Assembly (NCBI GenBank): GCA_026985515.1
Contig: JALSQH010000166.1
Coordinates: 1 to 10,091 of the forward strand
Reading direction: 5' to 3'
Source of the DNA: a bacterium
GTDB lineage: Bacteria; JALSQH01
DNA length: 10,091 bases
The notes under the pieces are model-generated. The model made no database searches. It had not been told where the DNA came from and saw nothing but the letters and a program-made list of their open reading frames with translations. Position 1 is the first letter of the stretch; every line of letters starts with the position of its first letter. Below are positions 407 through 10,091 of this stretch, piece by piece. The translations under genes were made by a program, and so were the position numbers.

Positions 407-1687
407 TCAGATGATCCTCTTGAAGTGATCAAAAATCTCCATGTCAATTTTATCTCTGAATTTTTTCTCCATCAGTGAGAGGGCCTTTCTGGATGATAGT
501 TCTTTTCTGTATGGTCTCGGAGATGTGAGAGCCTCATAAATATCTACTATTGTGAGTGTCCTTGTGAAGAAGTCCAGGTCCTTACTGCACAGTCCCCTCC
601 AGTACCCTGTGCAATCGAGGTATTCGTGATGTTTGCCCACTATCTCTGCCACATCATCCATTCCATAGATTTTTTTTGCTATCATTTCAGAATAATAGGG
701 ATGTCTGCGGACAACCCGCCATTCAGATCTGTTGAGTTTCCTTTTCAGACTGAGTACTTCAGGAGGTATGTGGAGTTTTCCTATGTCATGAATGGCGGCA
801 GAGAGGGTCAATTTCTCAATATCGGCAGGAGAGAGGTAGAGATTTTCTCCAAAATGTTTGAGGAGTTCTGCAACATTCTTTGAATGGGGTTTTTCATAGT
901 TGCTCCACACCTCTTCCATGTAGCTGAAGAGTTCCCCTATTGTGCCTGAGTCGAGAGATTTATCCCCCTCCTCCTCCGGTTTTATTCGAACAATCTCCTC
1001 CTCAACTTCTCCATCAATGAGGAAGTCAATGAAGTCATTATCTTCAAATTTCTTGAGAAGTTCAGAAACTATTTCATAATCATACTTCTCAAACTGCTCC
1101 TTCAACCAATTTTTCACCTTTTCCACATTGTGTCTGTCATCATTTAAGAGGTGAATACTCTTTTCAGACAGGCAAACAATCTGATTTACGGGAGATGAAA
1201 TTTTGTTCGCCACGTATCTGCTGTGGAGGAATTCTTTAAGTTTTTGAAGAACTTCTTCGGGAACTCCATAAGTTTTAAAAGCGTGGAGAGTTTCCTCAAC
1301 ACTTTTTTTCAGTTCGTTCTTCCACTCTTTTAAGAGGTCCTCATTTATTGTTTTTTCAACTGCTTCTCTGAAACATGAAAACCCACATTTTTTGTGGTAA
1401 CTCCAGAGAGATGAGTACCTTTTCAATTTTCTGCTGAGGAAGTTCCTTATGAAAAGAATGCCAAAATCATGGAAAATTGAGGCATAAAAGAGGGCAAGCA
1501 GGTCAGTTTCATCCTCTAATATGTGTTCCCCAATACTCATGGAAACGAAAGTTAGTTTGATACCGTGGCTCAATGGTTGATCCTCTGCAAGATCAATCGC
1601 CTGAGTTATTGCAAAGGCGAAAGAGAGTCTGACAGGTTCCTCCTCTTCGCTTTTTATTATTTTTTTCAGTACCCTTGAGAAATCCAT
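407..1687 (-). CDS. Tandem HD-domain protein with C-terminal HD-GYP-like phosphohydrolase domain
   Basis: The protein has 426 residues with no signal peptide or membrane segment, so it is probably cytoplasmic. The N-terminal half (about 25-225) looks like a divergent HD domain: SHG at 40-42, FHDFG at 72-76, and CLSEKSIHLL at 172-181 in the place of the usual late helix. An acidic linker (about 226-245) leads to a second, better conserved HD domain: H268, IHDIGK at 299-304, H329, HHE at 353-355 and VDIYEALTSPRPYR at 381-394. These match the metal ligands and the DALTS.RPYR block of HD-GYP phosphodiesterases, which degrade cyclic di-GMP or related cyclic dinucleotides. The name-giving GYP is GYW here (361-363) and the preceding segment is HHEYLDCTGYW rather than HHERxDGxGYP, so the substrate is uncertain. 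The start overlaps the end of the upstream lipoprotein gene by 22 nt. An AGAGGA Shine-Dalgarno about 6 nt before the ATG supports it. Confidence 0.85.
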   Translation of the reverse strand: MDFSRVLKKIIKSEEEEPVRLSFAFAITQAIDLAEDQPLSHGIKLTFVSMSIGEHILEDETDLLALFYASIFHDFGILFIRNFLSRKLKRYSSLWSYHKKCGFSCFREAVEKTINEDLLKEWKNELKKSVEETLHAFKTYGVPEEVLQKLKEFLHSRYVANKISSPVNQIVCLSEKSIHLLNDDRHNVEKVKNWLKEQFEKYDYEIVSELLKKFEDNDFIDFLIDGEVEEEIVRIKPEEEGDKSLDSGTIGELFSYMEEVWSNYEKPHSKNVAELLKHFGENLYLSPADIEKLTLSAAIHDIGKLHIPPEVLSLKRKLNRSEWRVVRRHPYYSEMIAKKIYGMDDVAEIVGKHHEYLDCTGYWRGLCSKDLDFFTRTLTIVDIYEALTSPRPYRKELSSRKALSLMEKKFRDKIDMEIFDHFKRII

Positions 1688-4308
1688 TTTTCTTCCTCTT
1701 TCTTGCTGAATGTTACTCTAATTCCCCTCAGAGTGCCTTCATTTTTTCCCGCTGGTGTAATGGCGGCAGCGATAGTCAGATCCTGATTACCCCCCACAGG
1801 CAGAATTATTGTACCCGATTTACCATTTATCTTCAAAGGATGGGAAGCAAAGATTGAGGGAATAAGATTTCCCATCAGATTGTTGTTTATGTATGTTCTT
1901 ATGAAGAGATTTTCTCCTGCGAAATCTATTCTGCAGAGGAAATTTCCATTCCAGTCGGGTGTGTGGATAAATTTTTTTACCCACACAATATTGCCTGAGG
2001 AAACCTGTAACGGAAGGTTTTTAAGAGACCAGAGGGAATTTACAAAATTTTCGTAAAACTTTTCTTTTTCTCCAATCAACCCCTTCATGAAATACCATTT
2101 TCCTCTGAGTGTTATGGTATATTCTCCAACCTTCACGAGCCCCTGTCCAAGGAATCCCGGTCTGTGGTAAAAGTTAAAGAGTGTCAGATACTCCTGGTAA
2201 GGGACGAATTTTGCCGGGAGGGTGTTCAAGTAAAGGGGGTCATCAAGGGGAAAGGAGCCCACAGGCAGTGCCATTATGATGATGTAATTGTTACCGATTT
2301 TAATCTGGCGCCTGTTGAAAGGTACCGTTACATCTTCTCCGTAGGCCAGGATTGTTCCAAGATAGTTGCCATTGAGAAATATGTTAAAAAGTCCGTTCGC
2401 CGATGGGAGAGTGATATAGCCGTTGCCTCCATGGGTATTTCTGAATGGTATGTAAACCCAGTAGAAACCTGATGTGTAGTTGTATGGGGAGGGGGAAAAG
2501 TAGTCTTCAAAGGCGTTTCCCTCAAGCCAGTTATCCCTGTTGTAGATGGGATTGTATTTATCGCTGAAAAGTGTTTCATTGAGAGTGTAGAGTTCTGTTA
2601 AGATGGCAGTTGACACTGCTGAAGAGAAATTTACAGTCGTTACAGTCTCGGGATAATCTCCACCTATTCTCTGAATAACCCCGTTTTTGCCTCCCCAGAT
2701 GTGCAGTGTCCCATCTATATCCACAGCGTAATCTATTCCCTTCAGGAGAAGATTCAATCTGGGGAGGAAAGAGAGGTGTTTTAGTCTTTCAGGAGGAAAA
2801 CCGTAGATAAGGATTTTGCCCCTGTTTTTTGAAGAGGAAATTTCCACGAGGGAATCGGTGAGAAATCTGATCCGTGTAAGATCGATTTTATTCCACTGGT
2901 TGGGAATGATTTTCACGCTGCCAGTGGTACTTATGCTGCAGTTTTCTGAATCTTCAGCAATGAGATATATGGTGGAGGTGGTTTTGCCAGCATAGAGTAC
3001 CCTGCAGTTTTCAATGATGGTTGATGGAAAATCTCTGGAAGAAATTTCTATTTTTAACTCTTTCTCATCCGTGTAGAGGATGCTCATCAGACTGTCTCTA
3101 CATTCCCATTCTCTGAAAATTTCTCTGCCTCTTTTGCTGCTGATATATTTCCACCAGATTCCATTTTCCATATCCAAATCATTACTGCTCCTCCACGTTT
3201 TCCACTCTACTATTCTGCAATGATCAGGGAAAAATCCTTCATTGAGCCATCTTGCAACTAAATTTAGTTCAGAGGCTGTTACAGAAGGTGGAGAGTAAAG
3301 GGAAATCAGTCCATTTTCAACAGGTGGTTGTGGACTTATCTCCGTTGCTCCCTCGGGATAACTTTTCCTATCCCATCCCTGAAGATCATCGGGATATAGG
3401 GTGGTTACAAAATTTGGAATGATAACACCTGAAAATCCTGCGGCTGATGCAGTAAGCACTTCATATGGATTGCTTTTCAGGAGTTTGAAAAAAGAGGGTT
3501 TCTCCTCTCCATACACACATTGATTGATCTTTTCCCCTGCAATTAATTGTGAATTTGATAGTTGAGATTCTTCCTCTATTAAAAAAGTCAGGTCCGGATA
3601 GTTTTTAACGAAGAAATTTATAAGGTTCTGCCTGTACTTTGTTATCATATTCTCTGATGGCGGGATCCCAAGGTATGTTAATGTTTCAAACCACACTGCT
3701 TTCAATCTATGAAGGTCTCCCTCAATCTGGACTGCAAAAATATTTCCAGGATTTTCATATGCATGGAGAAAGGGGAAAAGAATATCAAGGAGGGATTCTC
3801 CATATGAGGTGAATAGATTAATAAAATCTTCATCCGGGGTTCTTAAGGCTATTTTCCCATCACCATTTTCCGGTAAGAAGTAGAGATATCTCTGAAGCCA
3901 TGAGGGAAGACCCCCTCCAGAGGCATTTTCCAACGACTGAGGTGAAATATTCAAAATTACCAGGAAATCTGACTCAGCTGCGATTCTCAAAAGTGCCCTT
4001 AAGTTTCTCCTGTCGTTGAGGAAATCGGGGGGATTTTGTTCTGGTTGATGAAAGATCCATGGTACAGAGATATAGAGGGTGTTGATTCCAGAGGATTTAA
4101 GCTGGAATAGTAAATCCTTCCAGATCCTGAAATCATCTTTCTCAGTAGATGAATGTGGCGGGTATGAGTAGTAAGGAAAATTTGATGCCACTATGAATTC
4201 TTTTCTGCCATTTATTGTGAAATTTCCCCTCCTGTGCCAGCCCATTGATGTTTCATTTTCGCAGGAGAAAAGGGTAAGGAGGAGAATGAAAGGGAAGATC
4301 CGCCTCAT
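1666..4308 (-). CDS. Large lipoprotein with diverged GH35 beta-galactosidase-like fold
   Basis: The protein has 880 residues. MRRIFPFILLLTLFSC is a lipoprotein signal with lipobox LFSC (Cys16). Glu17 follows, so by the +2 rule of enteric bacteria it would go to the outer membrane. Residues about 28-200 follow the start of a GH35 (clan GH-A) barrel: an opening strand TINGRKEFIV, SGINTLYISVPWIFHQPE (73-90), a GGLPSWL segment (132-138) and FAVQIEGD (191-198). In GH35 enzymes the last is QVENEY, whose second Glu is the acid/base; here it is Asp198, preceded by Gly. The usual WFDHWG nucleophile motif is absent; E268/E269 is a possible substitute. Two beta-sandwich segments resembling GH35 galactose-binding-like domains lie near 610-690 (LNGNYLGTI at 645-653) and 770-870. 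Activity is therefore uncertain: it could be a glycosidase with changed specificity or a non-catalytic glycan binder. A TAG lies in frame four codons upstream, so ATG 4308 is the first available start, although its Shine-Dalgarno is weak. Confidence 0.75.
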   Translation of the reverse strand: MRRIFPFILLLTLFSCENETSMGWHRRGNFTINGRKEFIVASNFPYYSYPPHSSTEKDDFRIWKDLLFQLKSSGINTLYISVPWIFHQPEQNPPDFLNDRRNLRALLRIAAESDFLVILNISPQSLENASGGGLPSWLQRYLYFLPENGDGKIALRTPDEDFINLFTSYGESLLDILFPFLHAYENPGNIFAVQIEGDLHRLKAVWFETLTYLGIPPSENMITKYRQNLINFFVKNYPDLTFLIEEESQLSNSQLIAGEKINQCVYGEEKPSFFKLLKSNPYEVLTASAAGFSGVIIPNFVTTLYPDDLQGWDRKSYPEGATEISPQPPVENGLISLYSPPSVTASELNLVARWLNEGFFPDHCRIVEWKTWRSSNDLDMENGIWWKYISSKRGREIFREWECRDSLMSILYTDEKELKIEISSRDFPSTIIENCRVLYAGKTTSTIYLIAEDSENCSISTTGSVKIIPNQWNKIDLTRIRFLTDSLVEISSSKNRGKILIYGFPPERLKHLSFLPRLNLLLKGIDYAVDIDGTLHIWGGKNGVIQRIGGDYPETVTTVNFSSAVSTAILTELYTLNETLFSDKYNPIYNRDNWLEGNAFEDYFSPSPYNYTSGFYWVYIPFRNTHGGNGYITLPSANGLFNIFLNGNYLGTILAYGEDVTVPFNRRQIKIGNNYIIIMALPVGSFPLDDPLYLNTLPAKFVPYQEYLTLFNFYHRPGFLGQGLVKVGEYTITLRGKWYFMKGLIGEKEKFYENFVNSLWSLKNLPLQVSSGNIVWVKKFIHTPDWNGNFLCRIDFAGENLFIRTYINNNLMGNLIPSIFASHPLKINGKSGTIILPVGGNQDLTIAAAITPAGKNEGTLRGIRVTFSKKEEEKWISQGY

Positions 4309-4339: not shown

Positions 4340-5692
4340 TCAAATGATTTTCAGCTTTCTTGAGGGATTTTCCTGTTCCAGAATATTTAGTACTGCTTCA
4401 TCACTGTAGCTGACTTTCCTCAACTTATCAAGATAGTCCCTTACAAAATGCTTTGTGATTTCTATGCCATAGCTTTTCAGGATCTCTTTTATTTCGTCAA
4501 AATCTTCATCTATTGAAAAGATCACAGATTCAAACCCTTTTTTGGCCGCCTTGGCCCTGTTCCAGAAGGCAACAGGATTCATGTTGAAGAACTCTATGTC
4601 ATCTTCTGTTGGTTCAATGAGGATTATGTCGCCATTGAAGGATGGGTCATACTTGAATCTTTCGATTCCCACTTCCAATCTTGTGTGAAGAAGCGTCCTG
4701 AAGACCTGGTTGAGGACCGAGAGAATCCCCTTATCCGCTATGTATGTTCCCTGGACGCTGTATTTATCCAGTGCCTCTATGTATTCAACATGAATCTCAT
4801 TATAGATGGGCCTGAAAGGATTATAACAGATTATCAGTTCTGCACCATGCTCATAGGCAACATCAATATTTGCAGTTCTCCTTATTCCTCCATCTACATA
4901 GTCAATTCCTCTTATCCTTGCAGGTTTGTAGAATCCAGGCAACGCTGTGGATGCCTGGACTGCCTCAGAAATTGTGATGTCATTCCTCTCATTGTGACCG
5001 AAAACAACCCTTTCGGCGGTGTCAAGATTTGTGGCAGTTATGAAAAGTTCTTTCCCCGTTCTTCTGTAAAGTTCAACAAAATCGTTGGACAGGTTGTTTC
5101 TCTCTATGTTTTCTCGCAGGAATTTTTCAATCCGCTTATTGTCAAAGAAGCCTGAAGGGAGATATTCCAGGGGGTTGGGGAACTCCGGTGATATCATTGA
5201 ACTGGCTATTGGTTCGAGGATCTTTTCCAGATTTGAGTAGGTTGGATTTTTAATAAATTTTTTTACCTGCTCCTGTACCTCAAATAAAAGATTAGGAGCG
5301 ATTATGAAGAGGTCGTAGAGAAATTGAGGGAAAACTTTTATGAGATCCACAACGAACTGAATGGGCTTTGAGATCAATTCCCTGAAGTTTGGATAGTAAA
5401 AGTCCCAGTACTTCAGCTGTGAGAATTTTTCAGATGTACCACTGATACTTTTTAACATTTCTTCAGGGGGGATGTCACCTGCAAGGGGTGCGGATAATAG
5501 AGCTCCAGCACTCAGACCAACATATATGTCAAACTCGATTATTTTCCTGTTAAGGAGATAGCTGTTGAGAGCAATAAGTCCCCCCACTTTGAATGCTCCA
5601 CCTGAAACTGCTCCTCCAGCCAGGACGAGGGCAATTTTGGAACTTCTTTTATCTGTGCCTGGTTTGGTTTTTCTGACTATGGTTATTCCCAT
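4340..5692 (-). CDS. Patatin-like phospholipase family protein
   Basis: This 450-residue protein has the Ser-Asp dyad layout of patatin-like acyl hydrolases, which cleave phospholipid or other acyl esters. The glycine-rich oxyanion loop is LAGGAVSGGAFKVGG at 24-38, the nucleophile elbow is GLSAG with Ser61, and the Asp motif is YVDGG with Asp267. ASTALPGFYKPARI (248-260) precedes the DGG motif, as is usual in the family. The oxyanion loop lacks the common Arg/Lys (GGGxRG). A hydrophobic/aromatic stretch (about 105-140) sits between the catalytic residues and might contact membrane. There is no signal peptide. The C-terminal tail (about 300-450) is long and charged, and I do not recognise it. 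The ATG lies 10 nt after the fbp stop, and its GAGGGGG Shine-Dalgarno overlaps that stop codon, suggesting coupled translation. The substrate cannot be inferred from the sequence. Confidence 0.88.
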   Translation of the reverse strand: MGITIVRKTKPGTDKRSSKIALVLAGGAVSGGAFKVGGLIALNSYLLNRKIIEFDIYVGLSAGALLSAPLAGDIPPEEMLKSISGTSEKFSQLKYWDFYYPNFRELISKPIQFVVDLIKVFPQFLYDLFIIAPNLLFEVQEQVKKFIKNPTYSNLEKILEPIASSMISPEFPNPLEYLPSGFFDNKRIEKFLRENIERNNLSNDFVELYRRTGKELFITATNLDTAERVVFGHNERNDITISEAVQASTALPGFYKPARIRGIDYVDGGIRRTANIDVAYEHGAELIICYNPFRPIYNEIHVEYIEALDKYSVQGTYIADKGILSVLNQVFRTLLHTRLEVGIERFKYDPSFNGDIILIEPTEDDIEFFNMNPVAFWNRAKAAKKGFESVIFSIDEDFDEIKEILKSYGIEITKHFVRDYLDKLRKVSYSDEAVLNILEQENPSRKLKII

Positions 5693-5702
5693 AATTTCCC
5701 CC

Positions 5703-6722
5703 TCATACGGGTTGTTTTTCTCCTCTCAGAAATGCCTCTGCCTCCAGAACATCCTCCTCTGAACCAATTATCAGAGGAGTCCTCTGATGCAAATCCTCAG
5801 GCTGTATTTCTCTGATTCTCCTCTTTCCATCGCTGGCTCTTCCACTTGCCTGTTCAATGATGAAGGCAAGGGGATTTGCCTCATATATAAGTCTCAGCTT
5901 CCCGTTTGGATTCTTTTTGTCTGCTGGATAGAGAAAGATTCCTCCATAGATCAGGGTTCTGTGAAAGTCTGCAACGAGGGAACCTATGTATCTCATTTTG
6001 TAGGGTTTGCCATTTGCATTTTTATCAGATTTGAGGTAATCAATGTATTTTCTCATGTTTTCATCCCAGAGATTGTAGTTTCCTTCATTGACACTGTAGA
6101 TGTTTCCCCTCTTTGGAACCTTTATATCTGGATGTGAGAGGAGAAACTCTCCAACTGATGGATCAAGTGTAAATCCATGAACACCATTTCCTGTTGTGTA
6201 CACCAGCATTGTTGATGAGCCATAGAGAACATATCCTCCACAGACCAGATTGTCACCCTTCTGAAGCACATCCTCCAGCGTACCTTTGGTTCCCTCGGGT
6301 GTTACTCTTCTGTAGATTCCAAAAATTGTACCTATGGTGGCATTGACGTCAATATTTGATGAACCATCAAGGGGGTCAAAAACAAATACATACTTTCCCT
6401 GAGGATACTTATCCGGTATCTCTATGATCGTCTTGTTCTCCTCTGATGCCATCACACACAGGTGGCCGACGTGATCAAGTGCCTTGATAAAAGTTTCATT
6501 GGCATAAACATCAAGTTTTTTTACCTCATCGCCACTTACATTTGTCTCTCCAGTGAATCCAAGTATGTTTACCAGGCCAGCCTTGTTTACCTCCCTGCTG
6601 ACAATTTTTGCAGCAAAGGCAATCTGGTTAAAGAGAAGGGTGAATTCACCTGTGGCACCCTTTATCCTTCTCATCTCTTCAAGAATATGCCTTGAAAGTG
6701 GTGTACCAATTTTATCTGACAT
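5703..6722 (-). CDS. fbp: Class I fructose-1,6-bisphosphatase
   Basis: The enzyme hydrolyses fructose 1,6-bisphosphate to fructose 6-phosphate in gluconeogenesis. From ATG 6722 it has 339 residues, the usual class I length. Visible motifs, numbered from that start, are the metal-binding pair E94/E95 (ASEEN), FDPLDGSSN with D116 and D119, [15 protein letters not shown] (about 233-247) and [13 protein letters not shown] (275-287) with the metal ligand E281. A longer frame begins at a GTG at 6734, but the GGAGG at 6728-6732 overlaps that GTG and sits 5 nt upstream of ATG 6722, which makes 6722 the convincing start. It is the first gene of the leftward operon, with a strong promoter immediately upstream and the patatin gene 10 nt downstream. 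Nothing looks broken or unusual. Confidence 0.96.
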
Positions 6723-6727
6723 GGCAA

Positions 6728-6732
6728 CCTCC
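6728..6732 (-). promoter_or_regulatory. Shine-Dalgarno of fbp that decides the start
   Basis: On the minus strand GGAGG is followed by 5 nt and then ATG at 6722. The alternative GTG at 6734 overlaps this site and so is unlikely to be the initiation codon. Confidence 0.85.
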
Positions 6733-6759
6733 ACTTTTTCTTCAGTTTACTTTTATTAA

Positions 6760-6861: not shown

Positions 6862-6883
6862 TAATAGTGAACCGGGAGGTTTT

Positions 6884-8131
6884 ATGATTTTCAAGAAGGA
6901 AGACAGAAAAGAGATTCTGGAAAAATACGCAAAGTATGTTTCAAAGGGAAAGGTGGATCTCTACACCCAGTTTGGATTTGATCTTGTGGCAGGGGAAAGA
7001 GGTGGGGTTAAATTGAAGGACATTGGTGGTCGCGAATTTTACAATGTGCACTGCAATGGGGGGGTATTCAATCTTGGCCACAGAAACCCTGAGGTTATTG
7101 CCGCGTTGAAGGAGGCTCTTGAGTACTACGATATCGGCAATCATCACCTCATTTCTGGTCCCAGGGCTATTCTTGCTGAGAAACTTGTCTCCACCTTTCC
7201 AGATCCCCTGAACAAAGTTGTTTACAATGTAGGTGGAGGCGAAGCTATTGATCTTACGATAAAAATTGCAAGGGGTTACACAGGGAGAATGAAAATAATT
7301 TACGCAAGGGGTGGGTACCATGGCCACACAGGCCTTGCCCTGGCTGCCGGTGAGGAGAAATTCAAAAAGCCTTTTTTAGGTGAGACTCCAGATTTCATAC
7401 CTGTGGAGTTTAACAATATTGATGCAGTGAGGGAGAAATGTACTGAGGAAGTCGCCGCCGTGATCTTTGAAACGGTACCTGCCACAGGGGGGATAAAAAT
7501 ACCATCTCCCGATTTTTTCCCGGAAGTCAAGAGGATCTGTTCTGAGAAGGGTGCCATGTTTATCATTGATGAAGTTCAAACAGGTTTTGGAAGAACAGGA
7601 AAGTTGTGGGGATTTGAGCATTTTGATTTTGTCCCTGACATAGTTGTCATAGGTAAGGGAATGAGCGGAGGAATCTATCCAATTACCGCAGTGATTTACA
7701 ATGAGGAGTATGAAACCATTTTCCTGCAGGATCCCTTTATCCACATTTCAACCTTTGGGGGAAGTGAACTTGGATGTCATGTTGCAATGAAAGTGCTTGA
7801 AATCTCCTCAAGGAAGGAGTTTCTGGATAATGTAAACAAACAGGCTCAGATCTTCAGAGAGGGGGTAGAATCTGTCATGAATGAAATCCCCGGGGTAATA
7901 ACTGAATTCAGACAGCTTGGTTTGATGATGGGGTTAAAAATAAAGGATGAGATGACTGCCCTGATATTCCTGAAACACTTATTTGATAATGGAGTTTACA
8001 CAGTTTATTCAGGCAATGATCCCTCTGTGATTCAGTTTCTCCCTCCCCTCATTATTCGTGAAGATGAGAGCAGGGATATCCTTGATCGTATAAGGAAGAC
8101 CACCATGAGTGTCAGGGAGATAACAGGATGA
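6884..8131 (+). CDS. Class III PLP-dependent aminotransferase-fold enzyme, substrate unknown
   Basis: This 415-residue protein is a full-length fold-type I, class III (acetylornithine/GABA aminotransferase-like) enzyme. Visible features are the PLP phosphate-binding segment NVGGGEA (115-121), the ring-stacking YHG (145-147), E196, FIIDEVQTGFGRTG (226-239) with D229 contacting the pyridine nitrogen, GKGMSGG with the Schiff-base Lys258, and HISTFGG (287-293) with T290 from the partner subunit. Two positions are unusual. The phosphate-binding motif is GGGEA rather than the common SGTEA or SGSEA. In the C-terminal block QFLPPL (384-389) Gln384 stands where many members have an Arg that binds the substrate carboxylate. 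The enzyme may therefore not act on a standard amino acid, or it may be a phospholyase rather than a transaminase. The start has a clear GGGAGG site. It overlaps the following kinase-like gene by ATGA, so the two are probably translated together. Confidence 0.9.
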   Translation: MIFKKEDRKEILEKYAKYVSKGKVDLYTQFGFDLVAGERGGVKLKDIGGREFYNVHCNGGVFNLGHRNPEVIAALKEALEYYDIGNHHLISGPRAILAEKLVSTFPDPLNKVVYNVGGGEAIDLTIKIARGYTGRMKIIYARGGYHGHTGLALAAGEEKFKKPFLGETPDFIPVEFNNIDAVREKCTEEVAAVIFETVPATGGIKIPSPDFFPEVKRICSEKGAMFIIDEVQTGFGRTGKLWGFEHFDFVPDIVVIGKGMSGGIYPITAVIYNEEYETIFLQDPFIHISTFGGSELGCHVAMKVLEISSRKEFLDNVNKQAQIFREGVESVMNEIPGVITEFRQLGLMMGLKIKDEMTALIFLKHLFDNGVYTVYSGNDPSVIQFLPPLIIREDESRDILDRIRKTTMSVREITG

Positions 8132-9120
8132 GAAAAATTGTAGAAAAAAAAGGACTTGCAGAACATATTCCTGACGATGTGATTTTTGAATTTGAGGAAA
8201 AATTAAATCCTGCCTATCCCGAGAAGAGTGAAATAGAATTGAGAGTAATTGGCTATGGTGAAATAAGCACCACTTTTAACATTCCGCATCCATGCTGTGA
8301 GAAAATTGTTTTTAAGCGGATTCCCGTTTTTGAAAATGAGGAGCAGTTAAGGGATTACACCGCCCTTTACAACGAATATCTTGATTTACTTACTCAGAAT
8401 GGCATTGATCTCCCTGAAAACGGATACCTTTCTCTTGTAACTGATGATGACAGAATAGTTTTTTACGATATTCAGGAGTTACTCCCTTCTGAATCCATAG
8501 GCAACAAAATAATTCATATTGTTGATGATCAGCAATCCCTTGAACTTTTTAAAATGGTTCTTGAAAGGATGAAGTCCATATGGGAATACAATTCATCTCA
8601 TCCTGAAAAGCATATTGGTCTTGATGGGCAGATATCCAACTGGGCACTTCCTGATTTTCCCGAAGCAAAAAGGGTAACTTCTGGTATGAAGATTGTATAT
8701 ATAGATGTGAGTACTCCAATGATAAGGGAAAATGGAAGACATCTCCTAAATGCCGAGCTTTTCCTGAAAAGCACACCACCCGGCTTGAGATGGATTGCAA
8801 AGAAGTTTTTCCTGCAGGATGTTCTTGACAGATACCATGACCTGCATCTTGTAATTGTTGATCTTATTGCTAACCTCTATAAGGAGAAGAAAGAGGAGCT
8901 TATACCACCATTGATTGAATTTACAAACAAGTTTATCGAAGAAGAATTGGCATCTTTAGGTGTTGAACCGATAACAGGTGAAGAGGTGAAAAAGTATTAT
9001 AAAGAAGACGCCTTTATCTGGAGTTTCTATTTAACGGCAAGGAAAATTGACAGGTTCATTAAAACAAGGATACTGAAGAAGAGGTATGAGTTCATTTTAC
9101 CCGGAAAAATAGAAAGATGA
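8128..9120 (+). CDS. Putative kinase-like (APH/protein-kinase fold) protein of unknown substrate
   Basis: I do not recognise a named family for this 330-residue protein. The order and spacing of conserved-looking residues fit a diverged kinase-like fold: a glycine loop GYGEIST (42-48), a beta3-type Lys63 (VFKR), a helix-C-type Glu83 (YNEYLDLL), a hinge-like segment DIQELLPSES (114-123), a catalytic-loop-like LDGQISNW (165-172) in which D166 and N171 have the D-x4-N spacing of aminoglycoside phosphotransferases, and YIDVSTP (191-197) with D193 in the DFG-like position. The His normally two residues before the catalytic Asp is Gly. The C-terminal third is helical and charged, with no motif I can name. 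It would be cytoplasmic: there is no signal or membrane segment. ATG 8128 overlaps the aminotransferase stop and has an AGGGAG site 8 nt upstream. The context suggests that it phosphorylates the substrate or product of the aminotransferase-fold partner; this is inference. Confidence 0.6.
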   Translation: MRKIVEKKGLAEHIPDDVIFEFEEKLNPAYPEKSEIELRVIGYGEISTTFNIPHPCCEKIVFKRIPVFENEEQLRDYTALYNEYLDLLTQNGIDLPENGYLSLVTDDDRIVFYDIQELLPSESIGNKIIHIVDDQQSLELFKMVLERMKSIWEYNSSHPEKHIGLDGQISNWALPDFPEAKRVTSGMKIVYIDVSTPMIRENGRHLLNAELFLKSTPPGLRWIAKKFFLQDVLDRYHDLHLVIVDLIANLYKEKKEELIPPLIEFTNKFIEEELASLGVEPITGEEVKKYYKEDAFIWSFYLTARKIDRFIKTRILKKRYEFILPGKIER

Positions 9121-9134
9121 GCAGGAGCAGAAGA

Positions 9135-10091
9135 ATGGGGAAAAAATATTTATTTTTCGTCTTCATTGCAATCATATTTACCACTTCCCTCATGGCAGAA
9201 GGGTATGGTCCCTTTGTTGTTACACAGATCAGGGGGAATTTCGTTTATTTTGTGGGTAGTGAAACAGATTTTCTCATGCATAACAGATACTTCAGAGTTT
9301 TCAGAGTTGTACCGGGGAGATTCCCCAGGAGTCTGACAGACGTTGTTCCTGTGGCTGCGGCGAAAATATATGCAATATCCAGAGATGGTGGTATTCTTTA
9401 CTTCAAAAAAGGTGTTCCTGAAATTCTACGGAAAGGAGACAGGATTGTTATCGTTAAAGGTAACAAGATAACATTTGGTTTCAGCAAGAAGAAAAAAAGA
9501 CCCAGGGTCAAGTCCTTTTTTTTTGCTGATCTGGAAGAATCGATGTTTGAAACAGATGTGAACAGATTGAGATTAAAAGCTTCTGAAGAGCTTGTGAATC
9601 TTCTTTCAATTGTTGGACTCAGATTTGATGTTAGTTATATAAACAACAGATTTGTTCAGAGGAAGAGGTTATCCACCGAACCCGGTTCAGTTGAAATTAG
9701 CCGGGTTTATGATTTTGTTTCCATTTCTGCTCTCATAGGATTTGTTGATGTGGATTATGCCTTTCTGTTTGGTCCCATGCTTGGGGTTGTAAATGGGGTA
9801 AATGCCGGAGGTGTTGAGATTACATACAGATATGGTTTTCCCTACGAAAGCTTCTTCCAGATCAATCTGGAGGATGTTCCCACTGCCGATTATCTTGAGA
9901 TAGGTGTTAAGGGTAGATTCAAAACCACTGACAACAGAGGACTTTTGTTCAGGTATCAGTACAGCTCATATCCAGAAGTTGATCACAACAATCACTACAT
10001 CTCCATGGGACTGAGTTTTGTTAAGGAGAATAACATTATAAATGTTTACCTGGGTGTGGGTCTCAGTGGAGAGGATTACAGGGGTCCCACA
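9135..10091 (+). CDS. Secreted or outer-membrane protein, N-terminal 319 residues (cut by window edge)
   Basis: The frame is open from 9135 to the window end. The N-terminus MGKKYLFFVFIAIIFTTSLMA is a classical signal peptide, with cleavage likely after Ala21. Residues about 25-110 form a beta-rich domain (VTQIRGNFVYFVGS, then a GDRIVIVKG stretch) reminiscent of small beta-barrel modules in envelope assembly proteins; I cannot assign a family. A basic patch KKKKRPRVK (118-126) follows. From about residue 195 the sequence shows alternating hydrophobic and polar strands rich in Tyr, Phe and Gly (LLFRYQYSSYP, HYISMGLSFV, INVYLGVGL), typical of an outer-membrane beta-barrel. ATG 9135 has AGGAG at 9123-9127, 7 nt upstream. 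An in-frame ATG at 9117 overlaps the kinase stop as ATGA and would add MSRSRR; either start keeps the signal peptide. A T9 run lies at 9516-9524. The gene is probably the third gene of the rightward operon. Confidence 0.75.
   Translation, partial: MGKKYLFFVFIAIIFTTSLMAEGYGPFVVTQIRGNFVYFVGSETDFLMHNRYFRVFRVVPGRFPRSLTDVVPVAAAKIYAISRDGGILYFKKGVPEILRKGDRIVIVKGNKITFGFSKKKKRPRVKSFFFADLEESMFETDVNRLRLKASEELVNLLSIVGLRFDVSYINNRFVQRKRLSTEPGSVEISRVYDFVSISALIGFVDVDYAFLFGPMLGVVNGVNAGGVEITYRYGFPYESFFQINLEDVPTADYLEIGVKGRFKTTDNRGLLFRYQYSSYPEVDHNNHYISMGLSFVKENNIINVYLGVGLSGEDYRGPT

Follow-up and report, generated by a model that had tools for sequence, protein, structure and literature searches.

The logic of a kinase followed by a phospholyase is known from HYKK and PHYKPL, the hydroxylysine kinase and phosphohydroxylysine phospho-lyase of animals, and from ETNPPL; HYKK belongs to the APH family, and the substrate of PHYKPL bears an amino-acid carboxylate. 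In human OAT, Arg413 binds the carboxylate of 2-oxoglutarate and is gated by Glu235 (PMC9136103), and YgjG keeps the Glu243-Arg426 pair for 2-oxoglutarate (PMC4244111). PbfA, the (R)-1-hydroxy-2-aminoethylphosphonate ammonia-lyase, has the class III fold and works as a lyase although it is annotated as a transaminase (PMC8154272). The idea of a kinase working with a class III phospholyase is already known; the families described here, a DUF6206 protein (KI) and a PatA-related class III aminotransferase-fold enzyme (AT), are not.

The window, i.e., the whole stretch of 10,091 nucleotides analysed, carries AT and KI on the plus strand. A first-pass annotation of this DNA had recognized two full-length open reading frames with an ATGA overlap, and this arrangement was confirmed at 6884-8131 and 8128-9120. 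A -4 overlap of the two genes is also present in approximately 10 further loci, as judged from locus coordinates. The features of the window are as follows:

407-1687, minus strand: HD-domain protein, an ordinary neighbour
1666-4308, minus strand: GH35-like protein of 880 aa, an ordinary neighbour
4340-5692, minus strand: patatin-like phospholipase, an ordinary neighbour
5703-6734, minus strand: class 1 fructose-bisphosphatase, an ordinary neighbour
6871..6883, plus strand: ACCGGGAGGTTTT, ribosome-binding region of AT, 5' of the ATG, read from the sequence
6884-8131, plus strand: AT, 415 aa, class III aminotransferase-fold PLP enzyme, putative non-transaminase and probable phospholyase
8128..8131, plus strand: ATGA stop/start overlap of AT and KI, with presumed translational coupling
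8128-9120, plus strand: KI, 330 aa, DUF6206 protein, putative small-molecule kinase

Scans of the window for promoters and terminators gave hits at chance level only. A third open frame (9117-10091) shares an ATGA overlap with the end of KI, has a signal-peptide-like start and runs off the contig end; a Pfam search with this frame gave no match.

The first-pass annotation had treated the two genes as a pair from this one locus, and a survey of gene adjacency extended the pairing well beyond close relatives. AT adjoins KI in 43 of 45 KI loci from bacteria and Archaeoglobi, namely 19 of a set of 20, all 11 of another set (8 from the Archaeoglobi class and 3 others), and 13 of 14 from the Leptospiraceae phylum. 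In the two exceptions, AT lies on another contig of the genome (L029) or the contig starts at KI (L118). Among 386 genomes drawn from diverse bacterial families, DUF6206 (scored above the Pfam cut-off) and AT (E <1e-90) occur in the same 14, and among 59 Archaeoglobi-class genomes KI and AT occur in the same 11. Genomes are not independent of one another, but if they were, the chance of such identical genome sets would be about 7e-26 (bacteria) and 4e-12 (Archaeoglobi). Profile scores separate the members of the AT clade (at least 591 bits) from the closest ATs outside it (436), apart from two paralogues that fall in the gap (525 and 506). The AT and KI gene trees correlate with r=0.78, a value reached in none of 2000 permutations, although a correlation of this kind would also arise from adjacency and common descent alone. 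In one genome of the Archaeoglobi class (G434, locus L086) in-frame stops are found in both KI and AT, so the two genes have decayed jointly. AT-KI is a real, near-obligate module whose two genes are co-inherited in both bacteria and archaea. That Archaeoglobi, Leptospiraceae, KSB1 and other lineages all carry it suggests a metabolite that is common and yet unrecognised.

KI had been described on first reading as a kinase-like protein that belongs to no nameable family. A named family does exist, Pfam PF19709 (DUF6206), which KI matches with 96.4 bits against a cut-off of 30.4; this family is uncharacterised, and a search of a library of papers found no mention of DUF6206. DUF6206 was the sole Pfam match at E up to 1, and KI was unmatched by the APH profile PF01636. 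A sequence search of the PDB returned no credible relative of KI, and a search of plasmids returned no match. The AlphaFold2 model of KI (pLDDT 93.8, pTM 0.91, from an alignment of 20 homologues) has a two-lobed protein-kinase/APH fold, and the matches listed by Foldseek and VIA are kinase-fold proteins, save one unchecked chain of a large axonemal assembly. The best Z among the matches listed is that of amicoumacin kinase (10.6, rmsd 5.3, 230 aligned), and WaaP (10.4, 5.1, 214), N-acetylhexosamine 1-kinase (10.4, 4.5, 231) and APH(2'')-IVa (9.8, 4.7, 214) stand close to it; VIA Z differences below 1 were treated as ties. The best matches by Z are small-molecule kinases, with a margin of about 1 over protein kinases, whereas the top Foldseek matches by E-value are protein kinases. 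The kinase fold proposed earlier was thus borne out by the comparison of the predicted structure with known folds; on this model KI is a kinase-fold protein, and we infer that it acts as a kinase on a small molecule.

The residues expected of an active kinase were located in KI at the following positions, with conservation counted over 45 homologues (43 rows at G44, E45 and K63, where two rows are truncated):

8251..8271, plus strand: glycine-rich loop G42-Y-G-E-I-S-T48, flanked by two strands; 43/43 for G44 and E45
8314..8316, plus strand: K63, beta-3 lysine, in the strand next after the glycine-rich loop; 43/43
8623..8640, plus strand: catalytic loop D166-G-Q168-I-S-N171; D, Q and N in 45/45
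8704..8706, plus strand: D193, DFG-type metal-binding Asp, in the motif Y-[IFLV]-D-T-S-T-P; 45/45

P197 is also invariant in the 45 homologues. The earlier reading had placed K63, E83, D166, N171 and D193 in kinase order, and all five are at these positions; E83, however, is conserved in just 30 of 45 homologues, so its assignment as the helix-C Glu is unsupported by conservation, with a helix predicted at 71-90 after the K63 strand. A pseudokinase reading of KI was rejected because its catalytic residues are invariant.

Several variants of the KI protein were encountered. In one subgroup (L109-L114, L118-L120), the KI proteins begin with an extra N-terminal stretch of about 185-225 aa in which the motif PY-(L/F)-(E/Q)-x-Y-(L/M/I)-P is conserved. 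This stretch has no Pfam match, and the idea that KI is fused to a known domain was rejected on this ground. At locus L028 (genome G021), upstream of position 2510, an in-frame TAG lies near the KI N-terminus with the rest intact, which could reflect a pseudogene, an error or recoding. Genome G656 (L117:8119-8961) encodes a divergent DUF6206 protein of the core type (5.9e-48) that lacks a neighbouring AT; it was excluded from the 45-locus count and shows that the family has at least one further branch in another gene setting.

AT is a member of Pfam PF00202 (Aminotran_3; 275.6 bits), and its AlphaFold2 model (pLDDT 89.8) has YgjG/PatA (4uox) as the closest solved fold (Z 51.2, rmsd 1.9 over 413 residues, 30% identity). 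A search of viral contigs gave no match to the AT patterns. In an alignment of the ATs with PatA, OAT, ETNPPL and the Arthrobacter phospholyase, the intact PLP site reported earlier (K258, D229) held up. The positions of interest are:

7139..7147, plus strand: N86-H87-H88, aligned to OAT S112-R113-A114; in 39-42 of 43 paired ATs, rare in unpaired ones
7478..7486, plus strand: P199-A200-T201, replacing OAT/PatA Q233-G234-E235, which removes the Glu of the Glu/Arg switch for 2-oxoglutarate; 43/43, 43/43 and 42/43 in KI-paired ATs
7568..7570, plus strand: D229, Asp at the PLP pyridine nitrogen, aligned to OAT D263
7655..7657, plus strand: K258, PLP Schiff-base lysine, aligned to OAT K292
8033..8035, plus strand: Q384, replacing OAT R413, which removes the Arg of the switch

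In the 43 intact KI-paired ATs that entered the tree described below, the OAT E235 position is Thr in 42 and Ser in one, and the R413 position is Gln in 40 and Ile in three; one of the Ile cases is the AT of genome G041 (L090), which is not beside its genome's KI. Both Glu and Arg are kept in all 18 of the nearest unpaired ATs examined, i.e., 16 outgroup loci, L091 (the second AT copy of genome G186) and PatA. KI is absent from the 16 outgroup loci and the L091 region, and the genomes of the outgroup gave no match to DUF6206. Among these ATs the switch is thus lost throughout the KI-paired clade and nowhere else, so the kinase partnership coincides with the loss of ordinary transamination. By the switch criterion (Thr201, Gln384), AT as read from its alignment is predicted not to be a 2-oxoglutarate-dependent aminotransferase. 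These two residues separate KI-paired "aminotransferases" from real ones, and the paired enzymes would otherwise be named putrescine or acetylornithine transaminases. The close paralogue L091 (G186:C282), which lies near an amino-acid/amine permease and keeps Glu/Arg, provides a naturally occurring control for this pair of residues.

Loss of the switch is found elsewhere in the class III fold. BioA transaminates with SAM as partner and GSA aminomutase carries out an intramolecular amine shift, and neither uses 2-oxoglutarate. Among controls from the same genome as AT, an ArgD-like enzyme keeps Glu/Arg, and two enzymes that we take to be BioA-like and GSA-aminomutase-like from their sequences are without the pair. 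The pair is also missing from a class III ACL racemase variant (Glu at the R413 position) and from ETNPPL and the Arthrobacter phospholyase 5g4i (C/T at E235, K at R413). Since the BioA-like and GSA-aminomutase-like enzymes lack it too, its loss marks an enzyme as "not a standard 2-oxoglutarate transaminase" and not as a "lyase". Further clade-specific changes in AT are R113 to H87, A114 to H88, S84 to N58 and L276 to W242 (OAT residue given first). N58 and W242 are common to both known phospholyases, which may be due to chance, as they are two of 20 clade-specific positions and the gap near N58 is ambiguous. The clade-specific polar patch N86-H87-H88, together with N58, is a candidate for substrate or phosphate contacts. 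OAT R180, which contacts the substrate carboxylate, is His in AT and likewise in ETNPPL, which argues for a substrate without a distal carboxylate.

In a tree of 67 ATs (with long-branch warnings on the reference rows), the KI-paired ATs form one clade with support of 98/96 and thus have a single origin. An unpaired group (L091 and L139-L142) adjoins this clade, and the PatA-like enzymes lie outside. With one paired clade and the switch kept outside it, the gain of the kinase falls together with a single change in AT. The known phospholyases, ETNPPL and the Arthrobacter enzyme, make up their own clade (100/99), far from AT on long branches; as AT is PatA-related and outside that clade, a phospholyase activity in AT would be convergent.

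Compared with the described systems, AT-KI resembles HYKK/PHYKPL as it is generally described, in that a kinase-fold protein and a class III aminotransferase-fold enzyme would act in sequence on an amino alcohol; it differs in that KI matches DUF6206 rather than APH and AT has His in place of OAT Arg180. ETNPPL (6tor) has the same class III fold as AT (Z 47.1, rmsd 2.0, 368 aligned), and both it and the Arthrobacter enzyme (5g4i/5g4j) share with AT a non-Glu residue at E235, a non-Arg residue at R413, and N58 and W242, whereas the two belong to a separate clade, have Lys instead of Gln at R413, and have other residues at the P-A-T and N-H-H positions. PatA/YgjG, the closest solved structure in both sequence and fold, belongs to the clade next after the unpaired sister group, but has Glu243-Arg426 where AT has Thr and Gln, and Phe where AT has Gly at OAT Y85. 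PbfA differs in its phosphonate substrate, its OH leaving group and the lack of a kinase, and AT scores 210.8 bits against the PbfA family profile, the cut-off being 525. The amicoumacin, N-acetylhexosamine and aminoglycoside kinases and WaaP share the kinase fold and active-site order with KI, but are only about 10-13% identical to it on structural alignments and show no family match at the sequence level.

We propose that KI phosphorylates an amino alcohol and that AT, a phospholyase, eliminates phosphate from the product, a reading with about as much to be said for it as against it. An obligate kinase next to a PLP enzyme freed from 2-oxoglutarate is most simply read as phosphorylation followed by phosphate elimination. 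The acceptor would be a small vicinal amino alcohol that bears no distal carboxylate; KI would phosphorylate its hydroxyl with the gamma-phosphate of ATP, and the phosphorylated amine would bind AT as the external aldimine, displacing K258. Removal of the alpha proton and beta-elimination would expel phosphate, and the enamine released would be hydrolysed to an aldehyde or ketone plus ammonia. Because the leaving group comes from the phosphorylation step and a single half-reaction restores PLP, no 2-oxoglutarate would be needed. The phospholyase would have arisen separately from a PatA-like transaminase by the changes Q-G-E to P-A-T and R to Q.

The first-pass annotation had left the pair as a kinase plus phospholyase or transaminase module; the clade-wide loss of the switch favours the phospholyase, and the PatA relationship of AT, outside the ETNPPL/Arthrobacter clade, weighs on the other side. 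Several observations count against the phospholyase reading: the paired clade carries Gln and not the phospholyases' Lys at R413, AT does not group with known phospholyases in the tree, no conserved neighbour of the pair indicates a substrate, and the switch loss is not lyase-specific, being found in the BioA-like, GSA-aminomutase-like and class III racemase enzymes. The last of these observations also speaks for a somewhat unlikely alternative in which KI phosphorylates the substrate and AT, which keeps the PLP Lys and Asp, carries out some other 2-oxoglutarate-free PLP reaction, such as transamination with another partner, an intramolecular amine shift, or racemisation/epimerisation of the phosphorylated amine. 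This scheme, however, leaves the obligate kinase to be accounted for separately, whereas phosphate as a leaving group explains it directly, and the compared racemase has Glu rather than Gln at R413.

That the best Foldseek matches of KI by E-value are protein kinases, that many Leptospiraceae-phylum KIs are extended at the N-terminus by a domain of about 185 aa unmatched in Pfam, and that the pairing is near obligate would also suit a regulatory role, in which KI controls AT by protein phosphorylation or as a bound partner, or both belong to a signalling/modification system. We consider such a role improbable, as it would not predict changes in the substrate-recognition pair of the paired ATs, and the top Z scores are those of small-molecule kinases, though ahead of protein kinases by about 1. 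That putrescine aminotransferase is the closest relative of AT in sequence and structure would fit an ordinary 2-oxoglutarate-dependent diamine or amino-sugar transaminase acting first, with KI phosphorylating its product; both halves of the switch are gone from all intact KI-paired ATs and kept in their unpaired relatives, which makes this order of events very doubtful.

The kinase-phospholyase reading gives DUF6206 a likely biochemical role. If it is correct, class III phospholyases would have arisen from transaminases at least two times, a clear instance of convergence for which the unpaired sister ATs serve as a comparison. We put forward only tentatively the broader claim of an independent second kinase-phospholyase pathway that has passed between bacteria and archaea, in which DUF6206 would be a new family of amino-alcohol kinases, AT a PatA-derived convergent phospholyase, and the substrate new to metabolism.

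Beyond the AT-KI pair, no neighbour is conserved over the whole range of loci examined, and among these loci no conserved transporter, aldehyde dehydrogenase or catabolic gene hints at the substrate. Sugar-related genes (GH35, DUF2961, ABC transporter) occur in just one or two loci each, and the genes around the unpaired sister ATs (CoA-ester genes, an alcohol dehydrogenase, a permease) point to no common substrate. In one genome (L030), a gene of the RidA family, whose members are enamine/imine deaminases, follows the pair; this single case fits the release of an enamine. Several loci (L010, L039, L106, L107, L112-L115, L120) encode a secernin-like C69/C45 Ntn hydrolase (MCDT...KNSDRE...EAQ) adjacent to the pair or close by; it is confined to the Leptospiraceae-phylum sample and genome G128. 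A thiamine-kinase/APH-like gene is located upstream of AT-KI on the same strand at L116:3552-4616. In genome G277 (L038:8956-10305), a second class III aminotransferase-like gene sits between KI and AT, and its product has His at the position of OAT K292, i.e., the PLP Lys is replaced, so that it is probably a non-catalytic partner subunit.
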